Positions 21,052 through 38,591 of a stretch of DNA of 64,000 nt are shown in pieces; positions within the stretch are counted from its first letter, which is position 1; each line of letters starts with the position of its first letter. The position numbers were made by a program, and so were the translations under genes. Source of the DNA: Intestinibaculum porci (lineage in GTDB: Bacteria > Bacillota_I > Bacilli_A > Erysipelotrichales > Coprobacillaceae); NCBI RefSeq assembly GCF_003925875.1, contig NZ_AP019309.1, positions 1,798,001 to 1,862,000 of the forward strand, written 5' to 3'. The notes under the pieces are model-generated. The model made no database searches and was not told the DNA's origin. It worked only from the letters and a program-made list of their open reading frames with translations.

Positions 21052-21625
21052 ACTTAAACAAACGTAAAATATCATCCTTCGCTTTTTCTAATAGCACATT
21101 CGTATCCGTATCCACCATATCAAGACAATCCACTTTGATTTCATAGGTCTGTTGAATGTCAAACATTTGCGTACATAATGCTTTGATATAACCATACCCA
21201 TAGGTATCATCGAGAATTCTTGATCCGGCCGTAGTGACATAATAAAGTTTCGTCGCTTTGCATAAACCATAGCTGCTGCCATCACGATGATAATCATAAG
21301 TAATCGAAGCCACGCAGATATTTTCCAGATACACCTTTAATAATGAAGGAAAAGATAAGTCATAATAAGGCGCACTGATAATAATCTGATCAGCCTGCGC
21401 AAACTGATGCGCCGCCTCAAAAACAGGATGATCAATGACATCCTGAAAAAGTAAAAGCGAACGTTCTTTCAGTGCTTCTCGATCTAAAGGATGCAGATGC
21501 TTTTCATCCAGTTTGACTTCTTCGACGATGTCATCCATTTTAACGATCTGATCAATAAGAAAACGGGCTAATCGGTTGGTGCGTGATTCATCACGAATAC
21601 ATGCATTAATATAAAGTAATTTCAT
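21050..21625 (-). CDS. FMN-dependent NAD(P)H oxidoreductase (flavodoxin fold, AzoR/MdaB-like)
   Basis: 191 residues from ATG 21625; GAGG lies 8 nt before it, while the ATG at 21631 is too close to the same site. Motifs LYINACIRDESRTNRLARFL (FMN phosphate site), IISAPYYDLSFPSLLKVYLEN and TTAGS are those of the azoreductase/quinone reductase group. The left edge of the tandem repeat (21619) falls in codons 2-3, so copies 2 and 3 of the array carry only this gene's leader and first two codons. The gene itself is intact at the left end of the array. Confidence 0.87.
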   Translation of the reverse strand: MKLLYINACIRDESRTNRLARFLIDQIVKMDDIVEEVKLDEKHLHPLDREALKERSLLLFQDVIDHPVFEAAHQFAQADQIIISAPYYDLSFPSLLKVYLENICVASITYDYHRDGSSYGLCKATKLYYVTTAGSRILDDTYGYGYIKALCTQMFDIQQTYEIKVDCLDMVDTDTNVLLEKAKDDILRLFK

Positions 21626-21686
21626 TTGCATCGCCTCTTCTTGTCTCTATTGTATCAAATACGCCAAAAGAAAAAAGGAAAAGTAT

Positions 21687-21719
21687 CCAAAAGAAAAAAA
21701 CTGTGAATATCACAGTTTT
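21687..21719 (-). terminator. Amylase terminator (copy 1; also at +3582 and +7164)
   Basis: A 10-bp perfect inverted repeat 21697-21706 with 21710-21719, followed by seven T on the minus strand; it overlaps the stop codon of the amylase gene. Identical copies lie at 25279-25301 and 28861-28883. Confidence 0.85.
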
Positions 21720-23058
21720 AATGGAAAAGGGCAATCCCTTCATCACTTTGTAAAATGATTGGCTCACCATCTGTCGCGATCGTTCCTTCACGAATTTCTA
21801 CACGCTGTCCATCAATCAGATTGGTGTAATAACCATCATGCAGACCACTTTGCCCAAGGTCTAGGAATGAGGATTGACCATGAAAATGGAATAACCCGAC
21901 TAAATAAGGATGATCCTGATCATCTCGTGGTGATGAGGCATTTTCATGATGAATGGCCATCAGGACATCATCACGAAGTACTTTCGTTTCATAAGTAGAA
22001 TTGGTCATAATCGGATTCTTCTTGACCTGGTAAAGCTTATGCATGAGCGGTGATAAATCCATTCCTGTATCATAATCAATCGGATCCTTATCAAAGAGAG
22101 CTGGCGTATGCATAGCGCCGGCTTCCTGACCATTATAAAGCATCGCAATACCTTTATTGAAATACATAAAAGCTAAATGATTGCGCAGTGCTTTTTCATC
22201 TGGAATACTGAAATGTGCACGATTACGATCATGATTTTCTAAGAAACGCGCTTTTACATAATTATCGGGATAGATCGTTTCCTGACGATTGATCGCCGCA
22301 CTATATGTTTGTAAGGACACTTTTCCAGCCAGATAATCTTTAAAGATGCCAAAGATATCATAATCATAAGCCATATCGAAAGCCTGATAAATCTCACTGT
22401 CGCTAGCGCTTGCTATGCCGCGTGAGCGGTTATAAGCCACAAAGCCTGGTTCCACGCTTTCTGCTAACCATAAAGCGCCGGGGCGAACCTTTGCCACAGC
22501 TTCGCGCGCCGCTAACCAGAAATCAACGGGGACCATGCTTGCGACATCACAGCGGAAGCCATCGACATCCTTTGCCCACATCTTCAGTGTTTCAATCTGA
22601 TAATCCCACAATTCATGATTCGCGTAATCTAAATCTACCACATCCCACCAGTCACCAACGCGATTGCCAAGCGAGCCATCGGCTTTATGGAAGAACCATT
22701 CGGGATGATGGGTCGCTAAATAAGAATCTGGTGATGTATGATTATAGACGACATCAATAATGACTTTCATCCCCCGTTTATGAATGGCCTCACATAAGCG
22801 CTGAAAATCTTCTTTGCTGCCAAACTTCGGATTGACTTCACGATAATCACGAATGGCATATGGTGAGCCTAATGTCCCTTTGCGATGCAGCTTACCAATG
22901 GGATGAATGGGCATCAGCCAAATGATATCCACACCTAAACTTTGAATCCGGTCTAAATCATTCATAACGGCCTGGAACGTCCCTTCTTTTGAATAATTGC
23001 GTACGTAAATACTATAAATAACCTCATTACGTAATTGTTTGTTTGTATCTTTTGCCAT
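21718..23058 (-). CDS. GH13 alpha-amylase-family glycosidase, copy 1
   Basis: 446 residues from ATG 23058 (MAKDTNKQL). The GH13 barrel motifs are DVVYNHTS (about 102-109), GFRCDVAS with nucleophile Asp171, WLAES with acid/base Glu200 and FLENHD with transition-state Asp277. There is no signal peptide, so it probably acts inside the cell on imported malto-oligosaccharides; exact specificity is unknown. No Shine-Dalgarno is properly placed before ATG 23058, because the IS110 element begins only a few bases upstream. A GTG at 23100 inside the IS would extend the frame by 14 codons. The native promoter and RBS are at the far right of the array. Confidence 0.93.
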   Translation of the reverse strand: MAKDTNKQLRNEVIYSIYVRNYSKEGTFQAVMNDLDRIQSLGVDIIWLMPIHPIGKLHRKGTLGSPYAIRDYREVNPKFGSKEDFQRLCEAIHKRGMKVIIDVVYNHTSPDSYLATHHPEWFFHKADGSLGNRVGDWWDVVDLDYANHELWDYQIETLKMWAKDVDGFRCDVASMVPVDFWLAAREAVAKVRPGALWLAESVEPGFVAYNRSRGIASASDSEIYQAFDMAYDYDIFGIFKDYLAGKVSLQTYSAAINRQETIYPDNYVKARFLENHDRNRAHFSIPDEKALRNHLAFMYFNKGIAMLYNGQEAGAMHTPALFDKDPIDYDTGMDLSPLMHKLYQVKKNPIMTNSTYETKVLRDDVLMAIHHENASSPRDDQDHPYLVGLFHFHGQSSFLDLGQSGLHDGYYTNLIDGQRVEIREGTIATDGEPIILQSDEGIALFH

Positions 23059-23070
23059 AATAAATACACA

Positions 23071-23097
23071 TGTCAAAACGTCGTTGCCGTTTTGACA
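23071..23097. repeat. 10-bp perfect inverted repeat near the IS110 left end
   Basis: TGTCAAAACG at 23071-23080 and CGTTTTGACA at 23088-23097, spacer 7. It lies about 13 bp upstream of the amylase start codon. It may be a subterminal structure of the IS or an RNA hairpin that hampers amylase translation. Also in copies 2 and 3. Confidence 0.8.
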
Positions 23098-23395
23098 CAC
23101 CTTGCAATGAATATATCAATTCAATGCAGGTGTTTTTCTCCTTTCCAAATTTATTTTTTTCGTTCCCTCTGTATCGTTTGATTTGTTGTGGTTACGAACC
23201 TACAATTTATTTGATGGAGATTCGTACTACAAAGCACGGTGAGGGGCGTTGTACGGTTAAACTCAATCGTTAATCAAAACAGCATAATAAATTGTGTGAG
23301 ATCAGCCATTCATGCACATCTGAGTAGACCCGTTGAGGCTGTAGATTAATCAATGACTAACAGTTAATCTTTAGTGCTGGCTGACCAGTCAACGT
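23098..23395 (+). ncRNA. Structured 5' non-coding region of IS110; candidate bridge RNA
   Basis: About 300 bases without a credible ORF, with several hairpins: 23098-23132 followed by TTTTT, 23186-23205 (stem TTGTGGTT, loop ACG), 23343-23370 (7-bp stem, 14-nt loop) and 23377-23388 (CTGG-CTGA-CCAG). Established knowledge: IS110-family elements encode a bridge RNA in a non-coding end, with two internal loops that pair with target and donor DNA. That this region is such an RNA is inference from position and structure. Also at 26680-26977 and 30262-30559. Confidence 0.55.
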
Positions 23396-23426
23396 ATCTC
23401 CTTCAAAAAATTATTTGAAAGGAGAT
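23396..23426 (+). promoter_or_regulatory. Hairpin that hides the transposase ribosome binding site
   Basis: ATCTCCTTCAAA (23396-23407) pairs with TTTGAAAGGAGAT (23414-23426) with one bulged base. The right arm contains the GAAAGGAG that serves the ATG at 23434. The structure should limit translation, especially from read-through transcripts. Identical in copies 2 and 3. Confidence 0.85.
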
Positions 23427-23433
23427 TTTTGCT

Positions 23434-24936
23434 ATGAAAGTAATTCGCAATCCGAAAGACTTTCGAATCGTTTATTCAAGAGCCTGTGGCATTGACGTTC
23501 ACAAAAACTTTATTGTATGCACAGCATGCATTCCTGGCAGCAAGCCTGATCAGTGGAAGTTCATTACCAGACGATTTTCGACTTTCTACAAGGAATTAGA
23601 GGAATGTGCTGACTGGCTTTCAAAACTTGACTGCCAGAACGTGTGCATGGAATCAACAGGCCAGTACTATATACCTGTTCATGACGTTCTTGAGAAGAAA
23701 CTGTCGAACGTCAGGGTCGTCAACCCTAAATGGGTTAAAGCCGTCAAGGGCAACAAGGACGACAAGAAAGATTCCAAATGGATCTGTCAGCTTTTTAGGT
23801 TTGGCATGACAAAATCCAGCTTTATTCCAGGAGAAGAGATCAGAACCCTGAGAGGTGAAACGAGATACCGCTATAAAGTCATCAGCATGCGAACATCCGA
23901 AATGAACCGCTATCAGAACGCACTGACAGTCGGAGGTTTCAAAGTAGATGCAGTCTTTTCTGATGTCTTCGGCAAGTCTGCTCAGGCAATCATTAACCTT
24001 GTCCTTTCGGGTAAGGAATACACTGACAAGGATATTCTGTCACTTGTTCACAAAAACTGTAAGTCATCACCTGAGAAAATTCTTGAAGCCGTAAATGGAA
24101 TCAGAATGAATGATACTCAGAAAAAAAGACTTATAATCATCAAGAATCATTTAGACTATCTCACTGATGAAATTGGCGAGATTAATAAACAAATTGACTG
24201 TCTCGTCAAGGAGATTCCAGGCATGGAAGCAGCCATTGATCACTCATGCATGGTCCCCGGCATAGACAAAAACCTGGCAGTCATCATTATGTCAGAAATT
24301 GGCACTGACATGAGCCCTTGGCCTAGTCAGTACAATCTGGTAAGCTGGGCCGGTCTGGCGCCAGGTGACAATCAATCAGCCGGAAAAAAGAAATCCGTTA
24401 AGATCTCACGAGCCGGTGTCTATCTTAAGCCTGCCCTGGTCGAAGCGGCTCACGCCGCTGTAAAGGATAAGGAGCACCCTTATTATGCCATCAAGTATAA
24501 TACAATTAAAAAACGCCGTGGCCAGAAGAGAGCTATTATTGCAATTGCACGAAAGCTCTTAATTGCAATTTATCACATGCTTCTTACTGGCGAAAAATGG
24601 AATCCTACCGATCTTGCCAACGTTGAAACACCAACTGACAAAAGAAGAAAGTACATCAAGAAAAATCTTTCTAATTCCTTTAGTCAGCTGGAAAATGCTG
24701 GGATGTTACCGGAAGAAATTATTAATTATTTGAAAGGACAATTTTTAGATTTAGAAGTTTCAGCCGAGTCTGAAGATGATAGTGATTCTTCGGATAACGA
24801 TTCATCTAAAGGCACAGAAGCCTCAGCAGACTCTGCCGAAACTAATAATAGTGAATCACCTACTGAGCAATCGGCCTTAGACAGTGATTCACAGACAGAT
24901 TTGACTTTGGTAAAAGATAAATCTGCCGCAAGCTGA
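23434..24936 (+). CDS. IS110-family DEDD transposase, copy 1
   Basis: 500 residues, longer than most IS110 proteins. The RuvC-like DEDD domain shows GIDVHKNF (Asp21), CMESTGQYY (Glu) and KDDKKDSKW (Asp pair). The C-terminal Transposase_20 part shows PGIDKNLAVIIMSEIG and WAGLAPGDNQSAGKK with the conserved serine. The last 60 residues are Asp/Ser/Glu rich and of low complexity, which is unusual. All three copies encode the same protein with no defects, so it is likely active. Confidence 0.95.
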   Translation: MKVIRNPKDFRIVYSRACGIDVHKNFIVCTACIPGSKPDQWKFITRRFSTFYKELEECADWLSKLDCQNVCMESTGQYYIPVHDVLEKKLSNVRVVNPKWVKAVKGNKDDKKDSKWICQLFRFGMTKSSFIPGEEIRTLRGETRYRYKVISMRTSEMNRYQNALTVGGFKVDAVFSDVFGKSAQAIINLVLSGKEYTDKDILSLVHKNCKSSPEKILEAVNGIRMNDTQKKRLIIIKNHLDYLTDEIGEINKQIDCLVKEIPGMEAAIDHSCMVPGIDKNLAVIIMSEIGTDMSPWPSQYNLVSWAGLAPGDNQSAGKKKSVKISRAGVYLKPALVEAAHAAVKDKEHPYYAIKYNTIKKRRGQKRAIIAIARKLLIAIYHMLLTGEKWNPTDLANVETPTDKRRKYIKKNLSNSFSQLENAGMLPEEIINYLKGQFLDLEVSAESEDDSDSSDNDSSKGTEASADSAETNNSESPTEQSALDSDSQTDLTLVKDKSAAS

Positions 24937-24941
24937 CTTCT

Positions 24942-24970
24942 CCAGAAGAATCAGCAATTTATTCTTCTGG
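24942..24970. terminator. Hairpin after the transposase gene
   Basis: A 10-bp perfect inverted repeat, CCAGAAGAAT (24942-24951) with ATTCTTCTGG (24961-24970). There is no good T run, so it may be a weak terminator or mRNA-end structure. Copies at +3582 and +7164. Confidence 0.6.
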
Positions 24971-25299
24971 AATGTAAAAGCGCTAAAACTTTATAAATTT
25001 TCAATCCATATATCTGTTGTCTTCGTTTTCAGATGATCAGATAGCCCAATGTTAGTTAGTTCTAACAATTTCCAATATCTTGGGGTAAGGGGGATTTTAC
25101 GCTTTTTCAGCTATTGCACCTAAATTATATCATCCTTACAGCAAAAATAAACTCTGTTTCATTTCACATCAATTGTTATTTCATTAATATATTCAGATTA
25201 ATTTCATTTGCATCGCCTCTTCTTGTCTCTATTGTATCAAATACGCCAAAAGAAAAAAGGAAAAGTATCCAAAAGAAAAAAACTGTGAATATCACAGTT

Positions 25300-26640
25300 T
25301 TAATGGAAAAGGGCAATCCCTTCATCACTTTGTAAAATGATTGGCTCACCATCTGTCGCGATCGTTCCTTCACGAATTTCTACACGCTGTCCATCAATCA
25401 GATTGGTGTAATAACCATCATGCAGACCACTTTGCCCAAGGTCTAGGAATGAGGATTGACCATGAAAATGGAATAACCCGACTAAATAAGGATGATCCTG
25501 ATCATCTCGTGGTGATGAGGCATTTTCATGATGAATGGCCATCAGGACATCATCACGAAGTACTTTCGTTTCATAAGTAGAATTGGTCATAATCGGATTC
25601 TTCTTGACCTGGTAAAGCTTATGCATGAGCGGTGATAAATCCATTCCTGTATCATAATCAATCGGATCCTTATCAAAGAGAGCTGGCGTATGCATAGCGC
25701 CGGCTTCCTGACCATTATAAAGCATCGCAATACCTTTATTGAAATACATAAAAGCTAAATGATTGCGCAGTGCTTTTTCATCTGGAATACTGAAATGTGC
25801 ACGATTACGATCATGATTTTCTAAGAAACGCGCTTTTACATAATTATCGGGATAGATCGTTTCCTGACGATTGATCGCCGCACTATATGTTTGTAAGGAC
25901 ACTTTTCCAGCCAGATAATCTTTAAAGATGCCAAAGATATCATAATCATAAGCCATATCGAAAGCCTGATAAATCTCACTGTCGCTAGCGCTTGCTATGC
26001 CGCGTGAGCGGTTATAAGCCACAAAGCCTGGTTCCACGCTTTCTGCTAACCATAAAGCGCCGGGGCGAACCTTTGCCACAGCTTCGCGCGCCGCTAACCA
26101 GAAATCAACGGGGACCATGCTTGCGACATCACAGCGGAAGCCATCGACATCCTTTGCCCACATCTTCAGTGTTTCAATCTGATAATCCCACAATTCATGA
26201 TTCGCGTAATCTAAATCTACCACATCCCACCAGTCACCAACGCGATTGCCAAGCGAGCCATCGGCTTTATGGAAGAACCATTCGGGATGATGGGTCGCTA
26301 AATAAGAATCTGGTGATGTATGATTATAGACGACATCAATAATGACTTTCATCCCCCGTTTATGAATGGCCTCACATAAGCGCTGAAAATCTTCTTTGCT
26401 GCCAAACTTCGGATTGACTTCACGATAATCACGAATGGCATATGGTGAGCCTAATGTCCCTTTGCGATGCAGCTTACCAATGGGATGAATGGGCATCAGC
26501 CAAATGATATCCACACCTAAACTTTGAATCCGGTCTAAATCATTCATAACGGCCTGGAACGTCCCTTCTTTTGAATAATTGCGTACGTAAATACTATAAA
26601 TAACCTCATTACGTAATTGTTTGTTTGTATCTTTTGCCAT
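25300..26640 (-). CDS. GH13 alpha-amylase-family glycosidase, copy 2
   Basis: Protein identical to copy 1. The IS110 copy 2 left end abuts its start codon on the right. Confidence 0.93.
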   Translation of the reverse strand: MAKDTNKQLRNEVIYSIYVRNYSKEGTFQAVMNDLDRIQSLGVDIIWLMPIHPIGKLHRKGTLGSPYAIRDYREVNPKFGSKEDFQRLCEAIHKRGMKVIIDVVYNHTSPDSYLATHHPEWFFHKADGSLGNRVGDWWDVVDLDYANHELWDYQIETLKMWAKDVDGFRCDVASMVPVDFWLAAREAVAKVRPGALWLAESVEPGFVAYNRSRGIASASDSEIYQAFDMAYDYDIFGIFKDYLAGKVSLQTYSAAINRQETIYPDNYVKARFLENHDRNRAHFSIPDEKALRNHLAFMYFNKGIAMLYNGQEAGAMHTPALFDKDPIDYDTGMDLSPLMHKLYQVKKNPIMTNSTYETKVLRDDVLMAIHHENASSPRDDQDHPYLVGLFHFHGQSSFLDLGQSGLHDGYYTNLIDGQRVEIREGTIATDGEPIILQSDEGIALFH

Positions 26641-26643
26641 AAT

Positions 26644-28782
26644 AAATACACATGTCAAAACGTCGTTGCCGTTTTGACACACCTTGCAATGAATATATCA
26701 ATTCAATGCAGGTGTTTTTCTCCTTTCCAAATTTATTTTTTTCGTTCCCTCTGTATCGTTTGATTTGTTGTGGTTACGAACCTACAATTTATTTGATGGA
26801 GATTCGTACTACAAAGCACGGTGAGGGGCGTTGTACGGTTAAACTCAATCGTTAATCAAAACAGCATAATAAATTGTGTGAGATCAGCCATTCATGCACA
26901 TCTGAGTAGACCCGTTGAGGCTGTAGATTAATCAATGACTAACAGTTAATCTTTAGTGCTGGCTGACCAGTCAACGTATCTCCTTCAAAAAATTATTTGA
27001 AAGGAGATTTTTGCTATGAAAGTAATTCGCAATCCGAAAGACTTTCGAATCGTTTATTCAAGAGCCTGTGGCATTGACGTTCACAAAAACTTTATTGTAT
27101 GCACAGCATGCATTCCTGGCAGCAAGCCTGATCAGTGGAAGTTCATTACCAGACGATTTTCGACTTTCTACAAGGAATTAGAGGAATGTGCTGACTGGCT
27201 TTCAAAACTTGACTGCCAGAACGTGTGCATGGAATCAACAGGCCAGTACTATATACCTGTTCATGACGTTCTTGAGAAGAAACTGTCGAACGTCAGGGTC
27301 GTCAACCCTAAATGGGTTAAAGCCGTCAAGGGCAACAAGGACGACAAGAAAGATTCCAAATGGATCTGTCAGCTTTTTAGGTTTGGCATGACAAAATCCA
27401 GCTTTATTCCAGGAGAAGAGATCAGAACCCTGAGAGGTGAAACGAGATACCGCTATAAAGTCATCAGCATGCGAACATCCGAAATGAACCGCTATCAGAA
27501 CGCACTGACAGTCGGAGGTTTCAAAGTAGATGCAGTCTTTTCTGATGTCTTCGGCAAGTCTGCTCAGGCAATCATTAACCTTGTCCTTTCGGGTAAGGAA
27601 TACACTGACAAGGATATTCTGTCACTTGTTCACAAAAACTGTAAGTCATCACCTGAGAAAATTCTTGAAGCCGTAAATGGAATCAGAATGAATGATACTC
27701 AGAAAAAAAGACTTATAATCATCAAGAATCATTTAGACTATCTCACTGATGAAATTGGCGAGATTAATAAACAAATTGACTGTCTCGTCAAGGAGATTCC
27801 AGGCATGGAAGCAGCCATTGATCACTCATGCATGGTCCCCGGCATAGACAAAAACCTGGCAGTCATCATTATGTCAGAAATTGGCACTGACATGAGCCCT
27901 TGGCCTAGTCAGTACAATCTGGTAAGCTGGGCCGGTCTGGCGCCAGGTGACAATCAATCAGCCGGAAAAAAGAAATCCGTTAAGATCTCACGAGCCGGTG
28001 TCTATCTTAAGCCTGCCCTGGTCGAAGCGGCTCACGCCGCTGTAAAGGATAAGGAGCACCCTTATTATGCCATCAAGTATAATACAATTAAAAAACGCCG
28101 TGGCCAGAAGAGAGCTATTATTGCAATTGCACGAAAGCTCTTAATTGCAATTTATCACATGCTTCTTACTGGCGAAAAATGGAATCCTACCGATCTTGCC
28201 AACGTTGAAACACCAACTGACAAAAGAAGAAAGTACATCAAGAAAAATCTTTCTAATTCCTTTAGTCAGCTGGAAAATGCTGGGATGTTACCGGAAGAAA
28301 TTATTAATTATTTGAAAGGACAATTTTTAGATTTAGAAGTTTCAGCCGAGTCTGAAGATGATAGTGATTCTTCGGATAACGATTCATCTAAAGGCACAGA
28401 AGCCTCAGCAGACTCTGCCGAAACTAATAATAGTGAATCACCTACTGAGCAATCGGCCTTAGACAGTGATTCACAGACAGATTTGACTTTGGTAAAAGAT
28501 AAATCTGCCGCAAGCTGACTTCTCCAGAAGAATCAGCAATTTATTCTTCTGGAATGTAAAAGCGCTAAAACTTTATAAATTTTCAATCCATATATCTGTT
28601 GTCTTCGTTTTCAGATGATCAGATAGCCCAATGTTAGTTAGTTCTAACAATTTCCAATATCTTGGGGTAAGGGGGATTTTACGCTTTTTCAGCTATTGCA
28701 CCTAAATTATATCATCCTTACAGCAAAAATAAACTCTGTTTCATTTCACATCAATTGTTATTTCATTAATATATTCAGATTA
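26644..28782 (+). mobile_element. IS110-family element, copy 2
   Basis: Same boundaries relative to the unit as copy 1. Confidence 0.8.
27016..28518 (+). CDS. IS110-family DEDD transposase, copy 2
   Basis: Protein identical to copy 1, with the same sequestered ribosome binding site (26978-27008). Confidence 0.95.
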   Translation: MKVIRNPKDFRIVYSRACGIDVHKNFIVCTACIPGSKPDQWKFITRRFSTFYKELEECADWLSKLDCQNVCMESTGQYYIPVHDVLEKKLSNVRVVNPKWVKAVKGNKDDKKDSKWICQLFRFGMTKSSFIPGEEIRTLRGETRYRYKVISMRTSEMNRYQNALTVGGFKVDAVFSDVFGKSAQAIINLVLSGKEYTDKDILSLVHKNCKSSPEKILEAVNGIRMNDTQKKRLIIIKNHLDYLTDEIGEINKQIDCLVKEIPGMEAAIDHSCMVPGIDKNLAVIIMSEIGTDMSPWPSQYNLVSWAGLAPGDNQSAGKKKSVKISRAGVYLKPALVEAAHAAVKDKEHPYYAIKYNTIKKRRGQKRAIIAIARKLLIAIYHMLLTGEKWNPTDLANVETPTDKRRKYIKKNLSNSFSQLENAGMLPEEIINYLKGQFLDLEVSAESEDDSDSSDNDSSKGTEASADSAETNNSESPTEQSALDSDSQTDLTLVKDKSAAS

Positions 28783-28881
28783 ATTTCATTTGCATCGCCT
28801 CTTCTTGTCTCTATTGTATCAAATACGCCAAAAGAAAAAAGGAAAAGTATCCAAAAGAAAAAAACTGTGAATATCACAGTT

Positions 28882-30222
28882 TTAATGGAAAAGGGCAATC
28901 CCTTCATCACTTTGTAAAATGATTGGCTCACCATCTGTCGCGATCGTTCCTTCACGAATTTCTACACGCTGTCCATCAATCAGATTGGTGTAATAACCAT
29001 CATGCAGACCACTTTGCCCAAGGTCTAGGAATGAGGATTGACCATGAAAATGGAATAACCCGACTAAATAAGGATGATCCTGATCATCTCGTGGTGATGA
29101 GGCATTTTCATGATGAATGGCCATCAGGACATCATCACGAAGTACTTTCGTTTCATAAGTAGAATTGGTCATAATCGGATTCTTCTTGACCTGGTAAAGC
29201 TTATGCATGAGCGGTGATAAATCCATTCCTGTATCATAATCAATCGGATCCTTATCAAAGAGAGCTGGCGTATGCATAGCGCCGGCTTCCTGACCATTAT
29301 AAAGCATCGCAATACCTTTATTGAAATACATAAAAGCTAAATGATTGCGCAGTGCTTTTTCATCTGGAATACTGAAATGTGCACGATTACGATCATGATT
29401 TTCTAAGAAACGCGCTTTTACATAATTATCGGGATAGATCGTTTCCTGACGATTGATCGCCGCACTATATGTTTGTAAGGACACTTTTCCAGCCAGATAA
29501 TCTTTAAAGATGCCAAAGATATCATAATCATAAGCCATATCGAAAGCCTGATAAATCTCACTGTCGCTAGCGCTTGCTATGCCGCGTGAGCGGTTATAAG
29601 CCACAAAGCCTGGTTCCACGCTTTCTGCTAACCATAAAGCGCCGGGGCGAACCTTTGCCACAGCTTCGCGCGCCGCTAACCAGAAATCAACGGGGACCAT
29701 GCTTGCGACATCACAGCGGAAGCCATCGACATCCTTTGCCCACATCTTCAGTGTTTCAATCTGATAATCCCACAATTCATGATTCGCGTAATCTAAATCT
29801 ACCACATCCCACCAGTCACCAACGCGATTGCCAAGCGAGCCATCGGCTTTATGGAAGAACCATTCGGGATGATGGGTCGCTAAATAAGAATCTGGTGATG
29901 TATGATTATAGACGACATCAATAATGACTTTCATCCCCCGTTTATGAATGGCCTCACATAAGCGCTGAAAATCTTCTTTGCTGCCAAACTTCGGATTGAC
30001 TTCACGATAATCACGAATGGCATATGGTGAGCCTAATGTCCCTTTGCGATGCAGCTTACCAATGGGATGAATGGGCATCAGCCAAATGATATCCACACCT
30101 AAACTTTGAATCCGGTCTAAATCATTCATAACGGCCTGGAACGTCCCTTCTTTTGAATAATTGCGTACGTAAATACTATAAATAACCTCATTACGTAATT
30201 GTTTGTTTGTATCTTTTGCCAT
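28882..30222 (-). CDS. GH13 alpha-amylase-family glycosidase, copy 3
   Basis: Protein identical to copies 1 and 2. It is the copy nearest the native promoter, but 2.14 kb of IS110 in antisense orientation lies between them. Confidence 0.93.
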   Translation of the reverse strand: MAKDTNKQLRNEVIYSIYVRNYSKEGTFQAVMNDLDRIQSLGVDIIWLMPIHPIGKLHRKGTLGSPYAIRDYREVNPKFGSKEDFQRLCEAIHKRGMKVIIDVVYNHTSPDSYLATHHPEWFFHKADGSLGNRVGDWWDVVDLDYANHELWDYQIETLKMWAKDVDGFRCDVASMVPVDFWLAAREAVAKVRPGALWLAESVEPGFVAYNRSRGIASASDSEIYQAFDMAYDYDIFGIFKDYLAGKVSLQTYSAAINRQETIYPDNYVKARFLENHDRNRAHFSIPDEKALRNHLAFMYFNKGIAMLYNGQEAGAMHTPALFDKDPIDYDTGMDLSPLMHKLYQVKKNPIMTNSTYETKVLRDDVLMAIHHENASSPRDDQDHPYLVGLFHFHGQSSFLDLGQSGLHDGYYTNLIDGQRVEIREGTIATDGEPIILQSDEGIALFH

Positions 30223-30225
30223 AAT

Positions 30226-32364
30226 AAATACACATGTCAAAACGTCGTTGCCGTTTTGACACACCTTGCAATGAATATATCAATTCAATGCAGGTGTTTT
30301 TCTCCTTTCCAAATTTATTTTTTTCGTTCCCTCTGTATCGTTTGATTTGTTGTGGTTACGAACCTACAATTTATTTGATGGAGATTCGTACTACAAAGCA
30401 CGGTGAGGGGCGTTGTACGGTTAAACTCAATCGTTAATCAAAACAGCATAATAAATTGTGTGAGATCAGCCATTCATGCACATCTGAGTAGACCCGTTGA
30501 GGCTGTAGATTAATCAATGACTAACAGTTAATCTTTAGTGCTGGCTGACCAGTCAACGTATCTCCTTCAAAAAATTATTTGAAAGGAGATTTTTGCTATG
30601 AAAGTAATTCGCAATCCGAAAGACTTTCGAATCGTTTATTCAAGAGCCTGTGGCATTGACGTTCACAAAAACTTTATTGTATGCACAGCATGCATTCCTG
30701 GCAGCAAGCCTGATCAGTGGAAGTTCATTACCAGACGATTTTCGACTTTCTACAAGGAATTAGAGGAATGTGCTGACTGGCTTTCAAAACTTGACTGCCA
30801 GAACGTGTGCATGGAATCAACAGGCCAGTACTATATACCTGTTCATGACGTTCTTGAGAAGAAACTGTCGAACGTCAGGGTCGTCAACCCTAAATGGGTT
30901 AAAGCCGTCAAGGGCAACAAGGACGACAAGAAAGATTCCAAATGGATCTGTCAGCTTTTTAGGTTTGGCATGACAAAATCCAGCTTTATTCCAGGAGAAG
31001 AGATCAGAACCCTGAGAGGTGAAACGAGATACCGCTATAAAGTCATCAGCATGCGAACATCCGAAATGAACCGCTATCAGAACGCACTGACAGTCGGAGG
31101 TTTCAAAGTAGATGCAGTCTTTTCTGATGTCTTCGGCAAGTCTGCTCAGGCAATCATTAACCTTGTCCTTTCGGGTAAGGAATACACTGACAAGGATATT
31201 CTGTCACTTGTTCACAAAAACTGTAAGTCATCACCTGAGAAAATTCTTGAAGCCGTAAATGGAATCAGAATGAATGATACTCAGAAAAAAAGACTTATAA
31301 TCATCAAGAATCATTTAGACTATCTCACTGATGAAATTGGCGAGATTAATAAACAAATTGACTGTCTCGTCAAGGAGATTCCAGGCATGGAAGCAGCCAT
31401 TGATCACTCATGCATGGTCCCCGGCATAGACAAAAACCTGGCAGTCATCATTATGTCAGAAATTGGCACTGACATGAGCCCTTGGCCTAGTCAGTACAAT
31501 CTGGTAAGCTGGGCCGGTCTGGCGCCAGGTGACAATCAATCAGCCGGAAAAAAGAAATCCGTTAAGATCTCACGAGCCGGTGTCTATCTTAAGCCTGCCC
31601 TGGTCGAAGCGGCTCACGCCGCTGTAAAGGATAAGGAGCACCCTTATTATGCCATCAAGTATAATACAATTAAAAAACGCCGTGGCCAGAAGAGAGCTAT
31701 TATTGCAATTGCACGAAAGCTCTTAATTGCAATTTATCACATGCTTCTTACTGGCGAAAAATGGAATCCTACCGATCTTGCCAACGTTGAAACACCAACT
31801 GACAAAAGAAGAAAGTACATCAAGAAAAATCTTTCTAATTCCTTTAGTCAGCTGGAAAATGCTGGGATGTTACCGGAAGAAATTATTAATTATTTGAAAG
31901 GACAATTTTTAGATTTAGAAGTTTCAGCCGAGTCTGAAGATGATAGTGATTCTTCGGATAACGATTCATCTAAAGGCACAGAAGCCTCAGCAGACTCTGC
32001 CGAAACTAATAATAGTGAATCACCTACTGAGCAATCGGCCTTAGACAGTGATTCACAGACAGATTTGACTTTGGTAAAAGATAAATCTGCCGCAAGCTGA
32101 CTTCTCCAGAAGAATCAGCAATTTATTCTTCTGGAATGTAAAAGCGCTAAAACTTTATAAATTTTCAATCCATATATCTGTTGTCTTCGTTTTCAGATGA
32201 TCAGATAGCCCAATGTTAGTTAGTTCTAACAATTTCCAATATCTTGGGGTAAGGGGGATTTTACGCTTTTTCAGCTATTGCACCTAAATTATATCATCCT
32301 TACAGCAAAAATAAACTCTGTTTCATTTCACATCAATTGTTATTTCATTAATATATTCAGATTA
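30226..32364 (+). mobile_element. IS110-family element, copy 3
   Basis: The right end at 32364 adjoins A at 32365 and the GGAGG ribosome binding site of the amylase. This copy therefore still shows the original right insertion junction. Confidence 0.82.
30598..32100 (+). CDS. IS110-family DEDD transposase, copy 3
   Basis: Protein identical to copies 1 and 2, with the sequestered ribosome binding site at 30560-30590. Confidence 0.95.
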   Translation: MKVIRNPKDFRIVYSRACGIDVHKNFIVCTACIPGSKPDQWKFITRRFSTFYKELEECADWLSKLDCQNVCMESTGQYYIPVHDVLEKKLSNVRVVNPKWVKAVKGNKDDKKDSKWICQLFRFGMTKSSFIPGEEIRTLRGETRYRYKVISMRTSEMNRYQNALTVGGFKVDAVFSDVFGKSAQAIINLVLSGKEYTDKDILSLVHKNCKSSPEKILEAVNGIRMNDTQKKRLIIIKNHLDYLTDEIGEINKQIDCLVKEIPGMEAAIDHSCMVPGIDKNLAVIIMSEIGTDMSPWPSQYNLVSWAGLAPGDNQSAGKKKSVKISRAGVYLKPALVEAAHAAVKDKEHPYYAIKYNTIKKRRGQKRAIIAIARKLLIAIYHMLLTGEKWNPTDLANVETPTDKRRKYIKKNLSNSFSQLENAGMLPEEIINYLKGQFLDLEVSAESEDDSDSSDNDSSKGTEASADSAETNNSESPTEQSALDSDSQTDLTLVKDKSAAS

Positions 32365-32414
32365 TCCTCCTCACTTTTTTCATTATACAAAAGTGTCATG
32401 AAAAAGACATGACA
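32365..32414 (-). promoter_or_regulatory. Orphaned amylase promoter, operator-like repeat and ribosome binding site
   Basis: Read on the minus strand: a 7-bp inverted repeat TGTCATG-n7-CATGACA (32394-32414), a -10 box TATAAT (32382-32387), then GTGAGGAGGA (32365-32374), an excellent ribosome binding site whose last base touches the IS110 right end. No gene start follows, whereas the amylase start codon is found at the other end of the IS with no RBS. The -35 box is poor and overlapped by the inverted repeat, so a regulator may act there. Confidence 0.75.
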
Positions 32415-32444: not shown

Positions 32445-32476
32445 AAAAAAAGATATGACTGCCAATTGGCAGTCAT
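32445..32476 (-). terminator. Strong terminator of the candidate structured RNA
   Basis: A 22-bp perfect palindrome at 32455-32476 (arms ATGACTGCCAA/TTGGCAGTCAT) followed by ATCTTTTTTTC on the minus strand. Confidence 0.88.
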
Positions 32477-32858
32477 ACCGGTTCCATGAAACGTGAGGGA
32501 AATCTCAGGATCTCTGCAGTGATCCCGCCTTTCCCATCATTTCTGATGTTTAAGGGCAATTAATGGAATTGTAACACAAACTCCTAATTCGAATGACACC
32601 TAAGGGTCATTGATACATGTCAGAAGATCATGCTCACCCTTACGTGTGATTCATTTTTATTAAAGGCAGAGGTTATTGTTTTACAATGTGTATGATCCAT
32701 TAGAATCCAACCATCTCCTTCCGGTGAACAGGCTTCCAGGTATTACCCCTTCTTTATCTTCCAAAAGGTATTCATCCTTTTTTCAAGAAGGAATAACAAT
32801 CTCCTTTCTTCTTTATCACCACTTGCAATATTTACATGCATGTCTCTTGCTTAAGCTT
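32445..32858 (-). ncRNA. Candidate structured RNA of about 410 nt (identity unknown)
   Basis: A consensus promoter at 32865-32892 would start a transcript near 32858 that ends at the terminator above. No convincing ORF lies inside. Local hairpins on the minus strand include one closed by a GAAA tetraloop (CATCA-GAAA-TGATG, 32549-32562 region), GGATC...GATCC around 32505-32522, ATTGT-AAA-ACAAT near 32675, AAAAGG...CCTTTT near 32770 and AATGAC...GTCATT near 32600. It is not tmRNA, RNase P RNA or SRP RNA by the motifs I know. It could be a free-standing RNA or a long leader of the amylase. Confidence 0.5.
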
Positions 32859-33022: not shown

Positions 33023-33055
33023 ATTAAAAATTCCTTCTTTTTTAAGGAAGGAATT
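33021..33055 (-). terminator. Terminator of the urease operon
   Basis: Arms AATTCCTTC (33029-33037) and GAAGGAATT (33047-33055), followed by TTTTTAATTT on the minus strand; overlaps the ureD stop codon. Confidence 0.87.
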
Positions 33056-33917
33056 AAATATGGAGAGAGTGCGGCCCTTTCCGTAAAGCTAAAGGGGCTA
33101 AGCCGATGGCTTGGCGATAAGCCTTGATCAAAGTCTCCATCACTTTTCTATTCTCATCTATGCTCATCCCTAAAACACGTAAAACCATTCCTTCGCTTTC
33201 AATCATCGATAAGCCAAAGCGAGATGATGTCTGCGCGTCTTCAAGGATGTTTCTGAAGTATTCAACCTGCTTCTGATTGATATCTTCATCAATAATTGTC
33301 ACTGAGTTAAAGTTCGTGTAGCCTTCAAAAAAGCCAATCTCAGACATGGGATCATAACGCGGATCCACGAGCATAAAATCATTCATAAGTAAACGTTTTT
33401 GACGATAGATTCTAGTTTTAAGAGCCATTTGATGATAAGTGAACAAGCCCCCTTGCTCATCATAGCCGGCGGTTAAGCCTTCACTTAAAATCAGCTTCGC
33501 GTGTTTTTCTAAAACGATCTCATTATTTTGGTGAAAGAGCGCATCTTTATAAGGAATCGTTTCATCAAAGTAATATTCACACAGCGCATTTTCTCCCACT
33601 TTAAGCACGCAATCCTGATGTGTAGTGAAGCATTGATCGCACTTGTAAATATAATTAGGCGCCTGCGTCGTAAGAATGGCATGCGTATCATCATCTAAGA
33701 CAACCTCCTGCCGGTAACACTCTCCTTCCACATACCCGCCGCCTGTCGCAATCAGAAAGTAATAAGGAAAATCATCGTCATTAGGAATGGCGGCGGAAAT
33801 GCGGGAGTTGCCATGACGATAGAGATCATCTGCGACGCTGCGCTCCCCACGCCTTACAAAATGCATGCGGATCTCGCCGTCTAAAGATCTTCCAGTAAAC
33901 AGTCCTTTTTGAGCCAT
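33054..33917 (-). CDS. ureD: Urease accessory protein UreD (UreH)
   Basis: 287 residues. Typical UreD segments are [41 protein letters not shown] and [18 protein letters not shown]. UreD is the scaffold that binds apo-urease and then UreF and UreG for nickel insertion. It overlaps ureG by 37 bp and is last in the operon. Placing ureD after ureG is common in Bacillota. Confidence 0.95.
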
Positions 33918-34495
33918 TCGACAACACCATCCAGACCTTCATCCGTTTTGAGATTGGTAAAGAAGAACTTTCCATCGCCTCTAAACTTTTGCGACACTTC
34001 GCGCATATGCTTTAAGTTCGCACCAACATAAGGTGCTAAATCAATTTTATTGATGATAAAAAGATCAGATTTGATCATTCCCTGCCCTGCTTTGGAAGGA
34101 ATCTTTTCCCCTTCTGCGCAGTCGATAATATAAATGGAAAAATCTACTAATTCCGGAGAGAAGGTAGCGGCTAAGTTATCCCCGCCGCTTTCCACGAAAA
34201 TAATATCTAAGGTATGATCAAAACGTTTTTCTAATTCATCAATCGCCGCAAAATTCATGGAGGCATCTTCACGAATAGCGGTATGCGGACAGCCGCCAGT
34301 TTCTACCCCGATAATGCGATCTTCGTCTAACACCGAATTTTTTGCCATATATTCGGCATCCCATTTGGTATAAATATCATTGGTAATCACCGCCATGGAA
34401 TACTCATTATGAAGACGACGGGTTAAACGTTCGATCAATTGGGTCTTTCCGGACCCCACAGGGCCGCCAACCCCGATACGTAATGCTCTTTTCAT
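33881..34495 (-). CDS. ureG: Urease accessory GTPase UreG
   Basis: 204 residues, normal length. P-loop [12 protein letters not shown] is at residues 8-19; the CPH metal site is in [36 protein letters not shown] and [11 protein letters not shown] give the other G motifs. UreG powers Ni2+ delivery by GTP hydrolysis in the UreDFG complex. It starts 12 bp after ureF. Confidence 0.97.
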
Positions 34496-34507
34496 GCAAA
34501 ATACCTC

Positions 34508-35194
34508 CTAAGACATAAACAGACGGGCCGCCTGTGATTCATGTAAGATTTGGGCAATCTCTAAGCCTGGACTATTCGCCCCTAAATAGTCTTCATCAAA
34601 GGTGCAAACATTTTCGTAAAGGCCTTCGATTTCCTTGATGACATCATGTAAGATGACTTGTCCTTCACGTTGGCCTAGCGGCACGCTGCGCACCGCATTC
34701 TGGGTTAAGGTGGAAGCGACGGAGTAACCATACAGCGTAAAGACTTCCTGGCTGCTTAGTCCTTTGGCGTAGGCAAAGATCGCAAAGACAAGCGCCGGAT
34801 TGCCATACGCTTTGCCTTCTTCAACGGCCTCTACATAGCCGTTTAATAAAGGAAAGACATCACCATAAATTTTTTGGATAAGCAAATACATTTGCCGGGC
34901 AATCAGCTTGGTACCATCACGGGTTTCTTTCGCTAAAGTAGACTTGGTCATGAGATCATCATAGCGCAGGATCTCTGTCAGCGTCGCCTCTTCACAAAGC
35001 AGCGTTAATAACCCTTCGCCAAAGCAGTACTGCGAGCGAAAATAGTTCATCAGCCAACATTTAAACTGTGGCGCTTTCTTGATTTTGCGGTTGACGAGAT
35101 AGTTCTCCATGCCAAAAGAATGATTGAAGGTCCCAATGGGAAACGTCGAGTCACAAATTTGAAAGACATCCATCAGTGTTTTCGTATCAGCCAT
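34508..35194 (-). CDS. ureF: Urease accessory protein UreF
   Basis: 228 residues. ICDSTFPIGTFNHSFGMENYLV at the N-terminus and PLGQREGQ near the C-terminus are characteristic; the protein is all-helical and binds UreD and UreG. It overlaps the His-rich end of ureE by 8 bp. Confidence 0.95.
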   Translation of the reverse strand: MADTKTLMDVFQICDSTFPIGTFNHSFGMENYLVNRKIKKAPQFKCWLMNYFRSQYCFGEGLLTLLCEEATLTEILRYDDLMTKSTLAKETRDGTKLIARQMYLLIQKIYGDVFPLLNGYVEAVEEGKAYGNPALVFAIFAYAKGLSSQEVFTLYGYSVASTLTQNAVRSVPLGQREGQVILHDVIKEIEGLYENVCTFDEDYLGANSPGLEIAQILHESQAARLFMS

Positions 35195-35660
35195 GGTGAT
35201 GATGATGGCTATGGGCGACTAAGTTGGCATATTTCATCGGTTCATCTAATTGTCTTTTTTCCACCACATAGCTTGCTCCTTCCTGATCTAATGTCTTTTT
35301 GACAACCTCATCATAAAGCATCGTAATCTGACCGTCTTTGACCTGAATCGGTTTATGAAGATTGCCTAGCATATGGGCAGTCTTACCCATCTCATCAATA
35401 TCCTTGGGCGTAATGATCATCACTTCATCAGGAATCGCTTCTAGCACTAATAATTCATGATCCCCGATTATAAAGGCAGCGCCATTTTCCAGCCCTTGTG
35501 TTTCATCTTCTAAGCGAATACCATAGTCATGTCCATGATCACTAGTCACACGTAAAATAGATTTTAATAAATCATCGCTTTTAACGAGGGCTGTCTCGAC
35601 ATGGTAATCATGGAGATGCGGGATATCTTTCACATTGGCATAGACTTTCGTTAATATCAT
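35187..35660 (-). CDS. ureE: Urease nickel metallochaperone UreE
   Basis: 157 residues from ATG 35660 (AGAAGG upstream); a longer frame to 35798 would read inside ureC and is rejected. The C-terminal tail HSHHHHHG is a nickel-binding His tail, and AHMLGNLHKPIQ carries the conserved central metal site. UreE delivers Ni2+ to UreG in the cytosol. Confidence 0.95.
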   Translation of the reverse strand: MILTKVYANVKDIPHLHDYHVETALVKSDDLLKSILRVTSDHGHDYGIRLEDETQGLENGAAFIIGDHELLVLEAIPDEVMIITPKDIDEMGKTAHMLGNLHKPIQVKDGQITMLYDEVVKKTLDQEGASYVVEKRQLDEPMKYANLVAHSHHHHHG

Positions 35661-35679
35661 TGTAGACCTTCTTTCTTCA

Positions 35680-37401
35680 TTAGAAGAAATAGTAACGCTG
35701 CGCCAGTGGGACTTCTTCGACTGGATCACAGGTAATTTCTTCGCCATCAATCGTAACGATAAAGCTCTGAGGATCGATCTTGATCGTCGCTGGTGCATAA
35801 TTGTTTAATTTCATATCACGTTTCGTCAGATTTCTTGTCTTATGCACCGGTAAGACAATTTTATCTAATCCAAGCTGCTCTTTAATGCCATGTTCATAGG
35901 CATAAGTCGATACAAAGGTAATACTGGTTTTGGCCATACCCTTGCCGTAGCCGCCATAAAGATCACGCATCATGCGCGGTTCTGGTGTTGGCAGTGAAGA
36001 GGAAGCATCGCCCACAACGCCATAAGCGATGACGCCAGCTTTGAGCACTAATTTTGGTTTTGCGCCAAAGAATTTAGGATCCCAAATGACTAAGTCGGCA
36101 TATTTGCCTACTTCAACAGAACCGATATAATCAGCAACACCATTGACAATGGCTGGGTTAATCGTATATTTAGCGACATAACGTTTGATACGTTCATTAT
36201 CGGAATATTCATAGTCACCCTTTAATGGACCACGCTGCTTTTTCATTTTATCCGCTAGCTGCCAGCAGCGCATCGCCACTTCGCCGACACGGCCCATCGC
36301 CATCGCATCACTGGTCATGACGGATAACGCGCCCATGTCATGCAGCACATCTTCCGCTGCGACCGTCTGTTTACGAACACGAGATTCCGCAAAAGCCACA
36401 TCTTCTGGCACCTTTGGGTCTAAGTTATGACAGACCATCGTCATATCGAATAATTCATCAATAACATTGGTTGTATAAGGATTGGTTGGGTTGGTCGAGC
36501 TTGGCAAAATGTTCTGCTCTCCTGCCACGATCATAATATCAGGCGCATGACCGCCGCCGGCACCTTCAGTATGGAAAGTATGAACCGTTCGCCCAGCGAA
36601 GGCATTGAGCGTATTTTCTACGAAGCCGCCTTCATTTAACGAATCGGTATGAACAGCGTAAGAAACATCATATTCATCGGCTGCCTTGATGGAGTTATCG
36701 ATCCCGGCAGCGGTTGCGCCCCAGTCTTCATGGGTTTTAATGCCTGCCGCTCCGGCTCTGACCTGTTCGGCAATGGTTTCCGGAGTAGCCCCGGCGCCTT
36801 TGGCTAAAAAGCCATAATTAAGCGGATCATGATCGACCGCTTCTAACATGCGGTGAATATGATAAGCTCCCGGCGTTGTCGTAGCCGAGTTAGAGCCATC
36901 CGCCGGACCGGTTCCGCCGCCAAATAAAGTGGTAATGCCGTTATCTAAAGCCGCATGCGCTAAACCGGTCGATAAGTAATGGACATGTAAGTCAATGCCG
37001 CCAGCGGTGACAATCATCCCTTCGCCAGAAATTGCTTCGGTAGAAGCGCCAACGACAAAGTCGATATCATCCATGATATCAGGGTTGCCGCCTTTCCCGA
37101 TAGCGAGAATCTTGCCATCACGAATGCCGATATCGGCTTTATAAATACCGGTATAATCAATGATAAGCGCACCGGAAATAATGGTATCGGCGACTAAAGG
37201 ATTTTTCTCACGGGTCATCGTCGCATTGACGCCCATGCCATCTCTTAAAACTTTCCCGCCGCCAAATTTACTTTCCTGACCATGCACGGTGTAATCTTTT
37301 TCGACGCGGGCAAATAAGTTGGTATCGCCTAAGCGGACACTGTCGCCTTCGGCTGGTCCAAACATCTGGGAATACTGTTTACGATCCATTTTAAAACTCA
37401 T
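35680..37401 (-). CDS. ureC: Urease alpha subunit UreC
   Basis: 573 residues. All catalytic residues sit 5 positions after those of the Klebsiella enzyme: His139, His141, carbamylated Lys222 ([11 protein letters not shown]), His251, His277, flap Cys324 and His325, and Asp365. The residue after His325 is Asn (CHNLDP) where CHHLDP is usual. Urease hydrolyses urea to ammonia and carbamate with two Ni ions. The start overlaps ureB by 4 bp. In a gut or rumen organism it would supply nitrogen and buffer acid. Confidence 0.98.
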
Positions 37402-37745
37402 TTTTCTGCCTCCTTTGCATGGGCATGTTTATCTTTGTCAAGATAACCATTGACCTTATTATTAAAACCAAAGACGCGACGTGAACCGCCAAAATCGATT
37501 AGCGGCACGGTGCGGCTTTCGCCGGGTTCAAAACGAATCGCAGTCCCGGCTGGGATATCGAGACGTTTGCCATAAGCTTTCTCACGATCAAAGGCAAGAC
37601 CGCTATTGGCTTCATAAAAATGGAAATGGGAACCGACCTGAACGGCGCGGTCACCCGTATTTTTTACTTCGATTGCAATGGCCTCATAGCCAGTGTTGTA
37701 ATCAACGGGTTCATCAGTGGCATAATGATATTCTCCTGGAATCAT
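37398..37745 (-). CDS. ureB: Urease beta subunit UreB
   Basis: 115 residues. IPGEYHY at the N-terminus, [26 protein letters not shown] and GFNNKVNG are family signatures. The C-terminal tail is Lys/His rich ([13 protein letters not shown]). It lies between ureA and ureC as separate genes, the usual bacterial three-subunit form. Confidence 0.97.
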
Positions 37746-37757
37746 GTTGCTTCCCTC

Positions 37758-38060
37758 CTATCGTATTGGGTCATGGATGGTCACGAGTTTCGTACCATCA
37801 ACGAAAGTGGCTTCCACCTGAATCATCGGAATCATTTCCGGAACGCCTTCCATGACATCTTCACGTTTCAGGATTTTACCGCCTTCATTCATTAACTCAG
37901 CCACGCTTTTCCCAGCGCGGGCACCTTCTAAAATATAACTTGTAATCAGCGCGACACTTTCTGGATGATTCAATTTGATGCCCGCATCTTTTCGATGCTG
38001 GGCAATCATGCCAGCTAGTGAGATCATCATTTTCTCGCGCTCACGTTCTGTTAACTGCAT
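37758..38060 (-). CDS. ureA: Urease gamma subunit UreA
   Basis: 100 residues, standard length. [40 protein letters not shown] and [17 protein letters not shown] are diagnostic. It begins 12 bp after ureI. Confidence 0.97.
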
Positions 38061-38072
38061 AACAAGCCTCCT

Positions 38073-38591
38073 CTATTTTGGCCACATGTTCACGAGCATC
38101 AGGAAGCCCGGAATCCAGGCGGTGACCACGCCTTCGATGACACTTAAATAAGCAGGAAATTTTCCTAAGTTCATTTTTAAATTGTTGGTTAAGAAACCAG
38201 TGAGCCAGAGGACACCCCATGCCCACCAGATCACACCGTAGATGGCGTTACCGCCAAAACCATAAAAGCATAATGCCCCGGCAGGGATTGTATTAATCGC
38301 CACAAAGAGTGAGAAATAACCATACAAACGGTTATCTAGTTCAAAAATTGTATTAATAGCGGTATACAAATACGTGAAGGCGAATAATAAGCCCGTAGCC
38401 GAGCCAAAGAAATAGGTATTAGGCTGATTGGTCACAATGCCATAAGACAACGACACGATATTTAAAATCAAACTCAGGCCGCCAGTGAAAATATTCATGA
38501 CAGCCATGGATTTATCGGAAATCTTTTCAATCGTCGCGAGGCCATTAGAAATCAGGACAATACCAACATAAAGTAGAACACAACCTAACAT
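38073..38591 (-). CDS. ureI: AmiS/UreI-family urea/amide channel
   Basis: 172 residues with six membrane segments. NTYFFGSATGLLFAFTYLYTAIN and IWWAWGVLWLTGFL match the AmiS/UreI family. UreI proteins let urea cross the inner membrane, gated by acid pH in Helicobacter; whether this one is gated is unknown. Its place directly before ureA makes urea uptake the most likely role. Confidence 0.92.
   Translation of the reverse strand: MLGCVLLYVGIVLISNGLATIEKISDKSMAVMNIFTGGLSLILNIVSLSYGIVTNQPNTYFFGSATGLLFAFTYLYTAINTIFELDNRLYGYFSLFVAINTIPAGALCFYGFGGNAIYGVIWWAWGVLWLTGFLTNNLKMNLGKFPAYLSVIEGVVTAWIPGFLMLVNMWPK

Follow-up and report, generated by a model that had tools for sequence, protein, structure and literature searches.

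IS110 elements that very probably favor translation initiation regions, and the separation of an amylase gene from its ribosome binding site in Intestinibaculum porci

How does an insertion sequence (IS) come to lie exactly between the ribosome binding site (RBS) of a gene and its start codon, and is such a placement an accident or a habit of the element? The question is raised by a 64,000-nucleotide stretch of the Intestinibaculum porci genome (NZ_AP019309.1, positions 1,798,001 to 1,862,000; here called the window), which contains three tandem copies of a 3582-bp unit, identical by sequence comparison. Each unit holds one GH13 amylase gene on the minus strand and one IS110 element on the plus strand (Table 1). 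Our analysis indicates that the element is very probably a member of an IS110 (bridge-RNA) clade that prefers translation initiation regions as its target.

An earlier reading of the window from its letters alone (the sequence-only reading) had proposed that the IS110 element parts the native RBS from the amylase ATG, and this is what the junctions reveal. On the plus strand the left junction runs CAT-AATA and then IS, with CAT (23056-23058) the reverse complement of ATG, AATA at 23059-23062 and the element from 23063, leaving 4 nt between IS and start codon. The native RBS, GTGAGGAGGA, is stranded at the right edge of the array, where the sequence is ...TTCAGATTA up to the edge and TCCTCCTCACTTTTTTCATTATACAAAAG beyond it; read leftward, TATAAT (32387-32382) and GTGAGGAGGA (32374-32365) run up to the IS with no gene start behind them, as had been described. 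The units share the same IS junction, and the native RBS is, again as proposed, gone from all three amylase copies. Joining the flanks gives TATAATGAAAAAAGTGAGGAGGATATTATGGCA, that is TATAAT-GAAAAAAGTGA-GGAGG-ATATT-ATGGC, so removal of the IS does restore GGAGG beside the ATG, but at a spacing of 5 nt instead of the ~7 nt expected. The Shine-Dalgarno (SD) pairing energy falls from -11.5 kcal/mol in the joined flanks to -1.7 kcal/mol with the IS in place, against a background median of -2.65 kcal/mol. A relative with a different amylase upstream sequence would have spoken against the proposal; the one genus relative searched (G001), with an amylase of 62% at the amino acid level, shares the TATAAT-GGAGG-ATG architecture (TATAAT-AAAGATACT-GGAGG-TTTTTATT-ATGGC), its amylase DNA being too divergent to count as a strict empty site. 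No empty amylase site was found in the genome contigs, where the 60 amylase loci were all at most 60% identical. An alternative amylase start, a GTG at 23100 that would add a 14-codon in-frame extension, is without a clear SD.

The same placement recurs among relatives of the element. We entered 62 related copies into a census, of which 58 have a definable left end (none was found for L166, L137, L135 and L136) and 56 an evaluable right flank (L117 and L129 have no right end); for L129 the left end was placed manually, at offset 3, and in L027 CAT occurs twice, at 1 and at 4. CAT stands at the same place beside the left end in 56 of the 58 copies. The right flank contains a 4-mer of the SD complement in 54/56, the failures being L165 and L168, with L109 having the next IS copy as its right flank; the test is loose, accepting any 4-mer of TCACCTCCTT up to 12 nt away, and has a background of 11-22%. 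An offset of 7 in three Enterococcus and Lactococcus rows was corrected to 4 by empty sites, the Lactococcus row by analogy. Separate chromosomal copies of a relative in genome G016 (58% amino acid level) have CAT on the left and the reverse complement of an SD on the right, and the next clade (45-48%), in G041 and G016, is placed in the same way.

Such sites are rare among those that a guide could match. Across 400 kb of G016 and another 400 kb of G041, CAT with an open reading frame (ORF) of at least 40 codons and an SD was found at only 1.6-5.4% of guide-matching sites. Four families of the elements stand at CAT with ORF and SD in 9/10, 11/11, 8/12 and 6/6 copies (binomial p of 7e-16, 9e-18, 6e-10 and 3e-8, from counts entered by hand from the outputs; the G016a count is strictly 5/6, since the right flank of L109 is another IS copy). 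Eleven loci were read on Enterococcus faecalis plasmids, representing 8 different left flanks, of which the first is that of L176 itself; every locus lies 4 nt from a start codon (ATG in ten, GTG in one), and the right flank contains an SD in 9 of the 11. At the E. faecalis locus L251 (LR962564.1) the insertion lies beside a GTG start with an SD, yet the left guide reads CAT.

Empty sites give an independent view of the target. When the flanks of an E. faecalis plasmid insertion are joined, 87 records match, and in 79 the match extends over at least 80% of the join; for an E. raffinosus insertion the corresponding figures are 6 and 4. No empty site was found for the Lactococcus insertion. In all three empty-site sequences read, SD and ATG are adjacent where the IS is absent, and in pFac74-1 an annotated gene begins exactly at the CAT in question. 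By these sites the Enterococcus relatives insert at a short core with no long target duplication, besides one extra T in the E. faecalis empty site relative to the joined flanks, which we have taken as a polymorphism.

Placement at start codons seems confined to the nearer clade: in the 38% relatives in G347 and G358 no start codon stands at the left end (4 loci, by eye). Distant IS110s (~30% amino acid level) in G004 were at start codons in 0/6 cases. In the tree, one side holds the 22 start-codon rows and also G358, which does not target start codons, G198, whose ends were not found, and G239b, with CGT at the expected place. The targeting label has to change 3 times, and no protein was obtained for three of the names. 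Relatives of the recombinase were absent from viral contigs, and phage records held only 7 distant ones.

How might an element find such sites? The elements insert in a single orientation, with exactly 4 nt between IS and start codon, which leaves the native SD on the far side of the element. The left target guide (NATNN + core) appears to match the two bases beside the start codon, as judged by covariation: in 20 guide/target pairs the NN of the guide equals that of the target at 35/40 bases (shuffle mean 16.1, 0/20000 as high), an optimistic figure because the pairs, compiled by hand, include the near-identical elements G132/G115 and G021/G063. The guides of the window element lie in its longer non-coding end (371 nt upstream of tnp versus 262 nt downstream), where alignment identifies a conserved RNA, a candidate bridge RNA, with weak RNAalifold support over its whole length. 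An Rfam search of the array matched no family, and the one sub-threshold hit (enod40 at 0.78) was taken as chance. In genome G016, copies L160-L172 differ from one another in left guide and SD-like loop, as would be expected if guides drifted and took on new targets inside a single genome.

The other side of the target may be read by a second part of this RNA. Upstream of the left guide, a hairpin in 24 of 24 clade representatives has the loop GCACG..GGAGGTGAG or similar, whose pairing with the anti-SD amounts to -8.0 to -16.7 kcal/mol; the motif was present in 0/6 non-targeting IS110s. The strand opposite the SD is a possible pairing partner for a loop of this kind, and we infer that the SD side is read by this GGAGGTGAG-like consensus at variable spacing. 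The offset of the SD in the right flank is indeed variable, mostly 0-6 nt, so that a fixed-register right guide in the style of IS621 fits poorly; the stretch that follows the left guide on its 3' side hardly varies and has, by eye, no match to the right flanks. In two copies odd loops are found at matching odd flanks (L169, ATGGT/ACCAT; L171, GAAGG/CCTTC).

An outward-facing SD was present at the IS end in 51 of 51 relatives tested, weak in some, with a median energy of -9.3 kcal/mol (range -5.9 to -10.7) against -10.5 kcal/mol for the joined native flanks; the 5th percentile of the background is -8.0 kcal/mol, and the weakest IS-borne SDs fall in this tail. The left end of the relatives would thus hand the captured gene a substitute SD, which should keep it translatable. 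Among these elements the window copy, at -1.7 kcal/mol, is the exception. Its SD-like GGAAAGGAG (AAAGGAG) is separated from the amylase ATG by a two-hairpin block (-28.7 kcal/mol, z of -6.6 versus mononucleotide shuffles) that was not seen in relatives and of which no genome copy at near identity exists beyond these three; its second hairpin is flagged as terminator-like towards the amylase. The substitute SD thus appears to have been lost to the block. Deprived of the native SD and of an IS-borne one close by, all three amylase copies are probably poorly translated, in line with the sequence-only reading, which further suggested that the amplification may be a response to lowered expression. 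For an outward promoter in the IS we found no clear support, the consensus scan giving 14 matches where 9.5 were expected in the region. Transcripts starting at the native promoter would directly reach only the rightmost amylase copy, by read-through of the IS.

The hairpins could also be a working, perhaps regulated leader that brings AAAGGAG near the ATG, so that amylase is translated well. Hairpins that shorten SD spacing are found in phage T4 genes, and the window hairpins are very stable, and in the predicted fold AAAGGAG is not part of their stems. The residual spacing outside the two hairpins would still be ~17 nt, however, and the terminator-like second hairpin and the absence of the block from every relative also tell against a leader, which we regard as unlikely.

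That a single IS happened to land between RBS and ATG, as the sequence-only reading implied, is compatible with the one original insertion in this genome, whose single 3.21-Mb contig has no near-identical IS110 copy outside the array, but with the same split at the same offset in nearly all relatives, and with exact empty sites, it is hardly credible. A more serious alternative is survivorship, in which insertion occurs at any 7-nt guide match and only those in SD/start-codon gaps, repaired by the IS-borne SD, are tolerated. The IS end does carry an SD, insertions inside genes are harmful, and guide matches alone could account for NATNN-core. Sites with a very short ORF argue instead for recognition, as four of four still have an SD (L028, 8 codons; L119, 18; L171, 3; L177, 19) against a background of 11-14% for such CATs, although L031 (17 codons) and L255 (21 codons) are short-ORF sites without one; in addition the other guide matches, 95-98% of all, are almost never used. 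On balance we consider survivorship improbable.

Several observations nevertheless weigh against a preference for translation initiation regions read in the manner proposed. L165 lacks both CAT and SD, L120 has TAT, L168 lacks the SD 4-mer, L031 combines CAT and its 17-codon ORF with no SD, and L248 and L255 on the E. faecalis plasmids also have none. L135 (G239) has CGT at the expected position of CAT, before a lipoprotein-signal-like frame, perhaps because the start codon was lost by mutation after insertion (judged by eye). The guide base opposite the C of CAT is U or A in some elements, so the guide alone does not demand ATG. As to the loop, the best chance SD-like 12-mers in the non-coding ends of non-targeting IS110s reach -4.2 to -11.5 kcal/mol, and the loop covaries with the right flank to a degree that is no more than suggestive (82/5000 permutations, 56 rows; within G016b, 548/20000 by energy and 1830/20000 by perfect stretch). 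At the array, finally, the left guide fits the second site at only 2/5 non-core bases. The fullest version of the proposal is that the clade reads genomes much as a ribosome does, with the loop on the SD complement, flexible spacing and a CAU-like guide on the start codon, inserts between the two and donates a new SD, so that it can settle ahead of nearly any gene at little cost and carry that gene into tandem arrays; for this whole chain we see the case as evenly balanced.

How the array arose is a separate matter. The joins of units 2 and 3 connect exactly the IS right end (CAGATTA, followed by ATTTC) to a TA near the start of a flavodoxin-like ORF. The left array edge has no IS and each unit has one, so this is not a flanked amplification unit of the IS26 type. 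A guide-directed origin found no support: besides the poor match already mentioned, the left guide fits 30 of the 144 TA sites in the stretch better than the one used, and two nearby sites with a perfect CATAATA were passed over. These same facts favor an illegitimate 2-nt TA duplication in which the recombinase had no part, and we hold this as a tentative possibility. The junction lies exactly on the IS right end, however, and in G016 (L237, G016:C1:2357000-2362500) two IS copies in direct tandem are joined at the same right-end base (CAGATTA, then TAACCTCAC), in a form that resembles a circle junction frozen in place, or insertion next to a copy already present; both points suggest a role for the recombinase in array formation. 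The IS right end would have recombined with the TA near the start of the neighboring flavodoxin-like gene, and RecA-type expansion may have followed.

By domain content and guide layout the elements are IS110s. The recombinase has DEDD_Tnp_IS110 and Transposase_20 domains (PF01548, 1.4e-21, 77.4 bits; PF02371, 8.8e-15, 55.3 bits; both above the cut-off), the longer non-coding end lies upstream of tnp, and the left guide equals target plus core. We compared them with known systems as described in PMC11208160, PMC11208158, PMC11187229, PMC7288454, PMC11616780 and PMC2882425. With IS621 and other bridge-RNA IS110s (PMC11208160, PMC11208158) they share the DEDD and Transposase_20 recombinase, a long non-coding left end, insertion at a short core, a left guide that including the core equals the target strand and a left donor guide that equals the IS right end. 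IS621 differs in targeting a repetitive extragenic palindromic (REP) element with a CT core and in having its right guide 3' of the left guide (PMC11208158), whereas the window clade targets the SD/start-codon gap with what looks like a TA or TT core and variable SD spacing, has its candidate SD reader 5' of the left guide in a hairpin loop of its own, and supplies an SD from the IS end. The ISEc21 (seekRNA) type likewise has a non-coding region upstream of tnp and RNA-guided target choice, and the text available for it (PMC11187229) makes no mention of a start-codon target. The IS1111 group shares the DEDD recombinase and guided site-specific insertion but has its non-coding region downstream of tnp, where the window element has its long one upstream, and attC targets (PMC11187229, PMC11616780). 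In Thermosynechococcus elongatus, group II introns that lie between two start codons of an intron ORF (PMC2882425) are also RNA-guided elements near start codons; as described there, they use one conserved host site, are retroelements that splice out and have no general start-codon target. A literature search by title and start of abstract found no description of start-codon-targeting IS110s, which is weak evidence of novelty, as most subscription papers and all bioRxiv preprints lay outside that search.

Table 1. Positions of the array, the IS110 element and the parted amylase signals in the window
Feature	Positions	Strand	Remarks
Tandem units	21617..25198, 25199..28780, 28781..32362	.	3582 bp each
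IS110 element, three identical copies	23063..25198, 26645..28780, 30227..32362	+	2136 bp each; ends from comparison with relatives
IS110 recombinase, 500 aa (amino acids)	23434..24936, 27016..28518, 30598..32100	+	ORFs, Pfam
GH13 amylase coding sequence from ATG	21718..23058, 25300..26640, 28882..30222	-	ORFs, Pfam
CAT-AATA, amylase start codon and 4 nt before IS	23056..23062, 26638-26644, 30220-30226	-	sequence; offset matches relatives
Two-hairpin block, 67 nt	23067..23133	-	between SD-like AAAGGAG of the IS and amylase ATG
Displaced SD-like GGAAAGGAG (AAAGGAG)	23138..23146	-	79 nt from ATG
SD-like loop (contains GCACGGTGAGGGGCG), candidate bridge RNA	23233..23248	+	loop closed by TACAA/TTGTA stem; counterpart in 24/24 representatives
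Left target guide CATAATA, candidate bridge RNA	23283..23289	+	identical to target CATAATA at amylase start
Left donor guide TAGATTAA	23342..23349	+	matches IS right end CAGATTA; by inspection
TA, left array edge	21617..21618	.	inside flavodoxin-like ORF near its start; IS right ends of units 2 and 3 join this flank
TA core, right array end	32363..32364	.	core lies between IS right end and native right flank
Stranded native amylase RBS GTGAGGAGGA	32365..32374 (GGAGG = 32366-32370)	-	sequence; SD energy
TATAAT, presumed -10 of native amylase promoter	32382..32387	-	inference from sequence

A terminator-like hairpin lies 3' of every amylase copy. The presumed -10 of the stranded promoter was not picked up by the consensus promoter scan. 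Upstream of this promoter, near the -35, there is an operator-like inverted repeat (TGTCATG-N7-CATGACA, 32394-32414), and further upstream a strong terminator with a 12-bp stem and T-run (32452-32479), which ends a short unassigned transcript. The gap of ~690 bp up to 33054 contains no ORF of at least 100 aa. It is followed on the minus strand (33054-38060) by what we take, from the ORF translations, to be a urease cluster with accessory proteins, a 573-aa alpha subunit and beta and gamma subunits, and then by a small membrane protein (38073-38591), presumably a UreI/AmiS-type channel from the look of its translation.

If a preference for translation initiation regions holds true, these elements would be natural RNA-guided recombinases whose target is a functional class, translation starts, instead of one repeated sequence. 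They would also have a built-in repair of the function that they interrupt, from which spread at low fitness cost is predicted. Their insertions amount to a natural experiment on the effect of SD replacement across dozens of genes, and they point to bridge-RNA architectures with a flexibly spaced right-side reader. In I. porci, where the repair appears to be lost and the gene is present in three copies, dosage compensation becomes testable.
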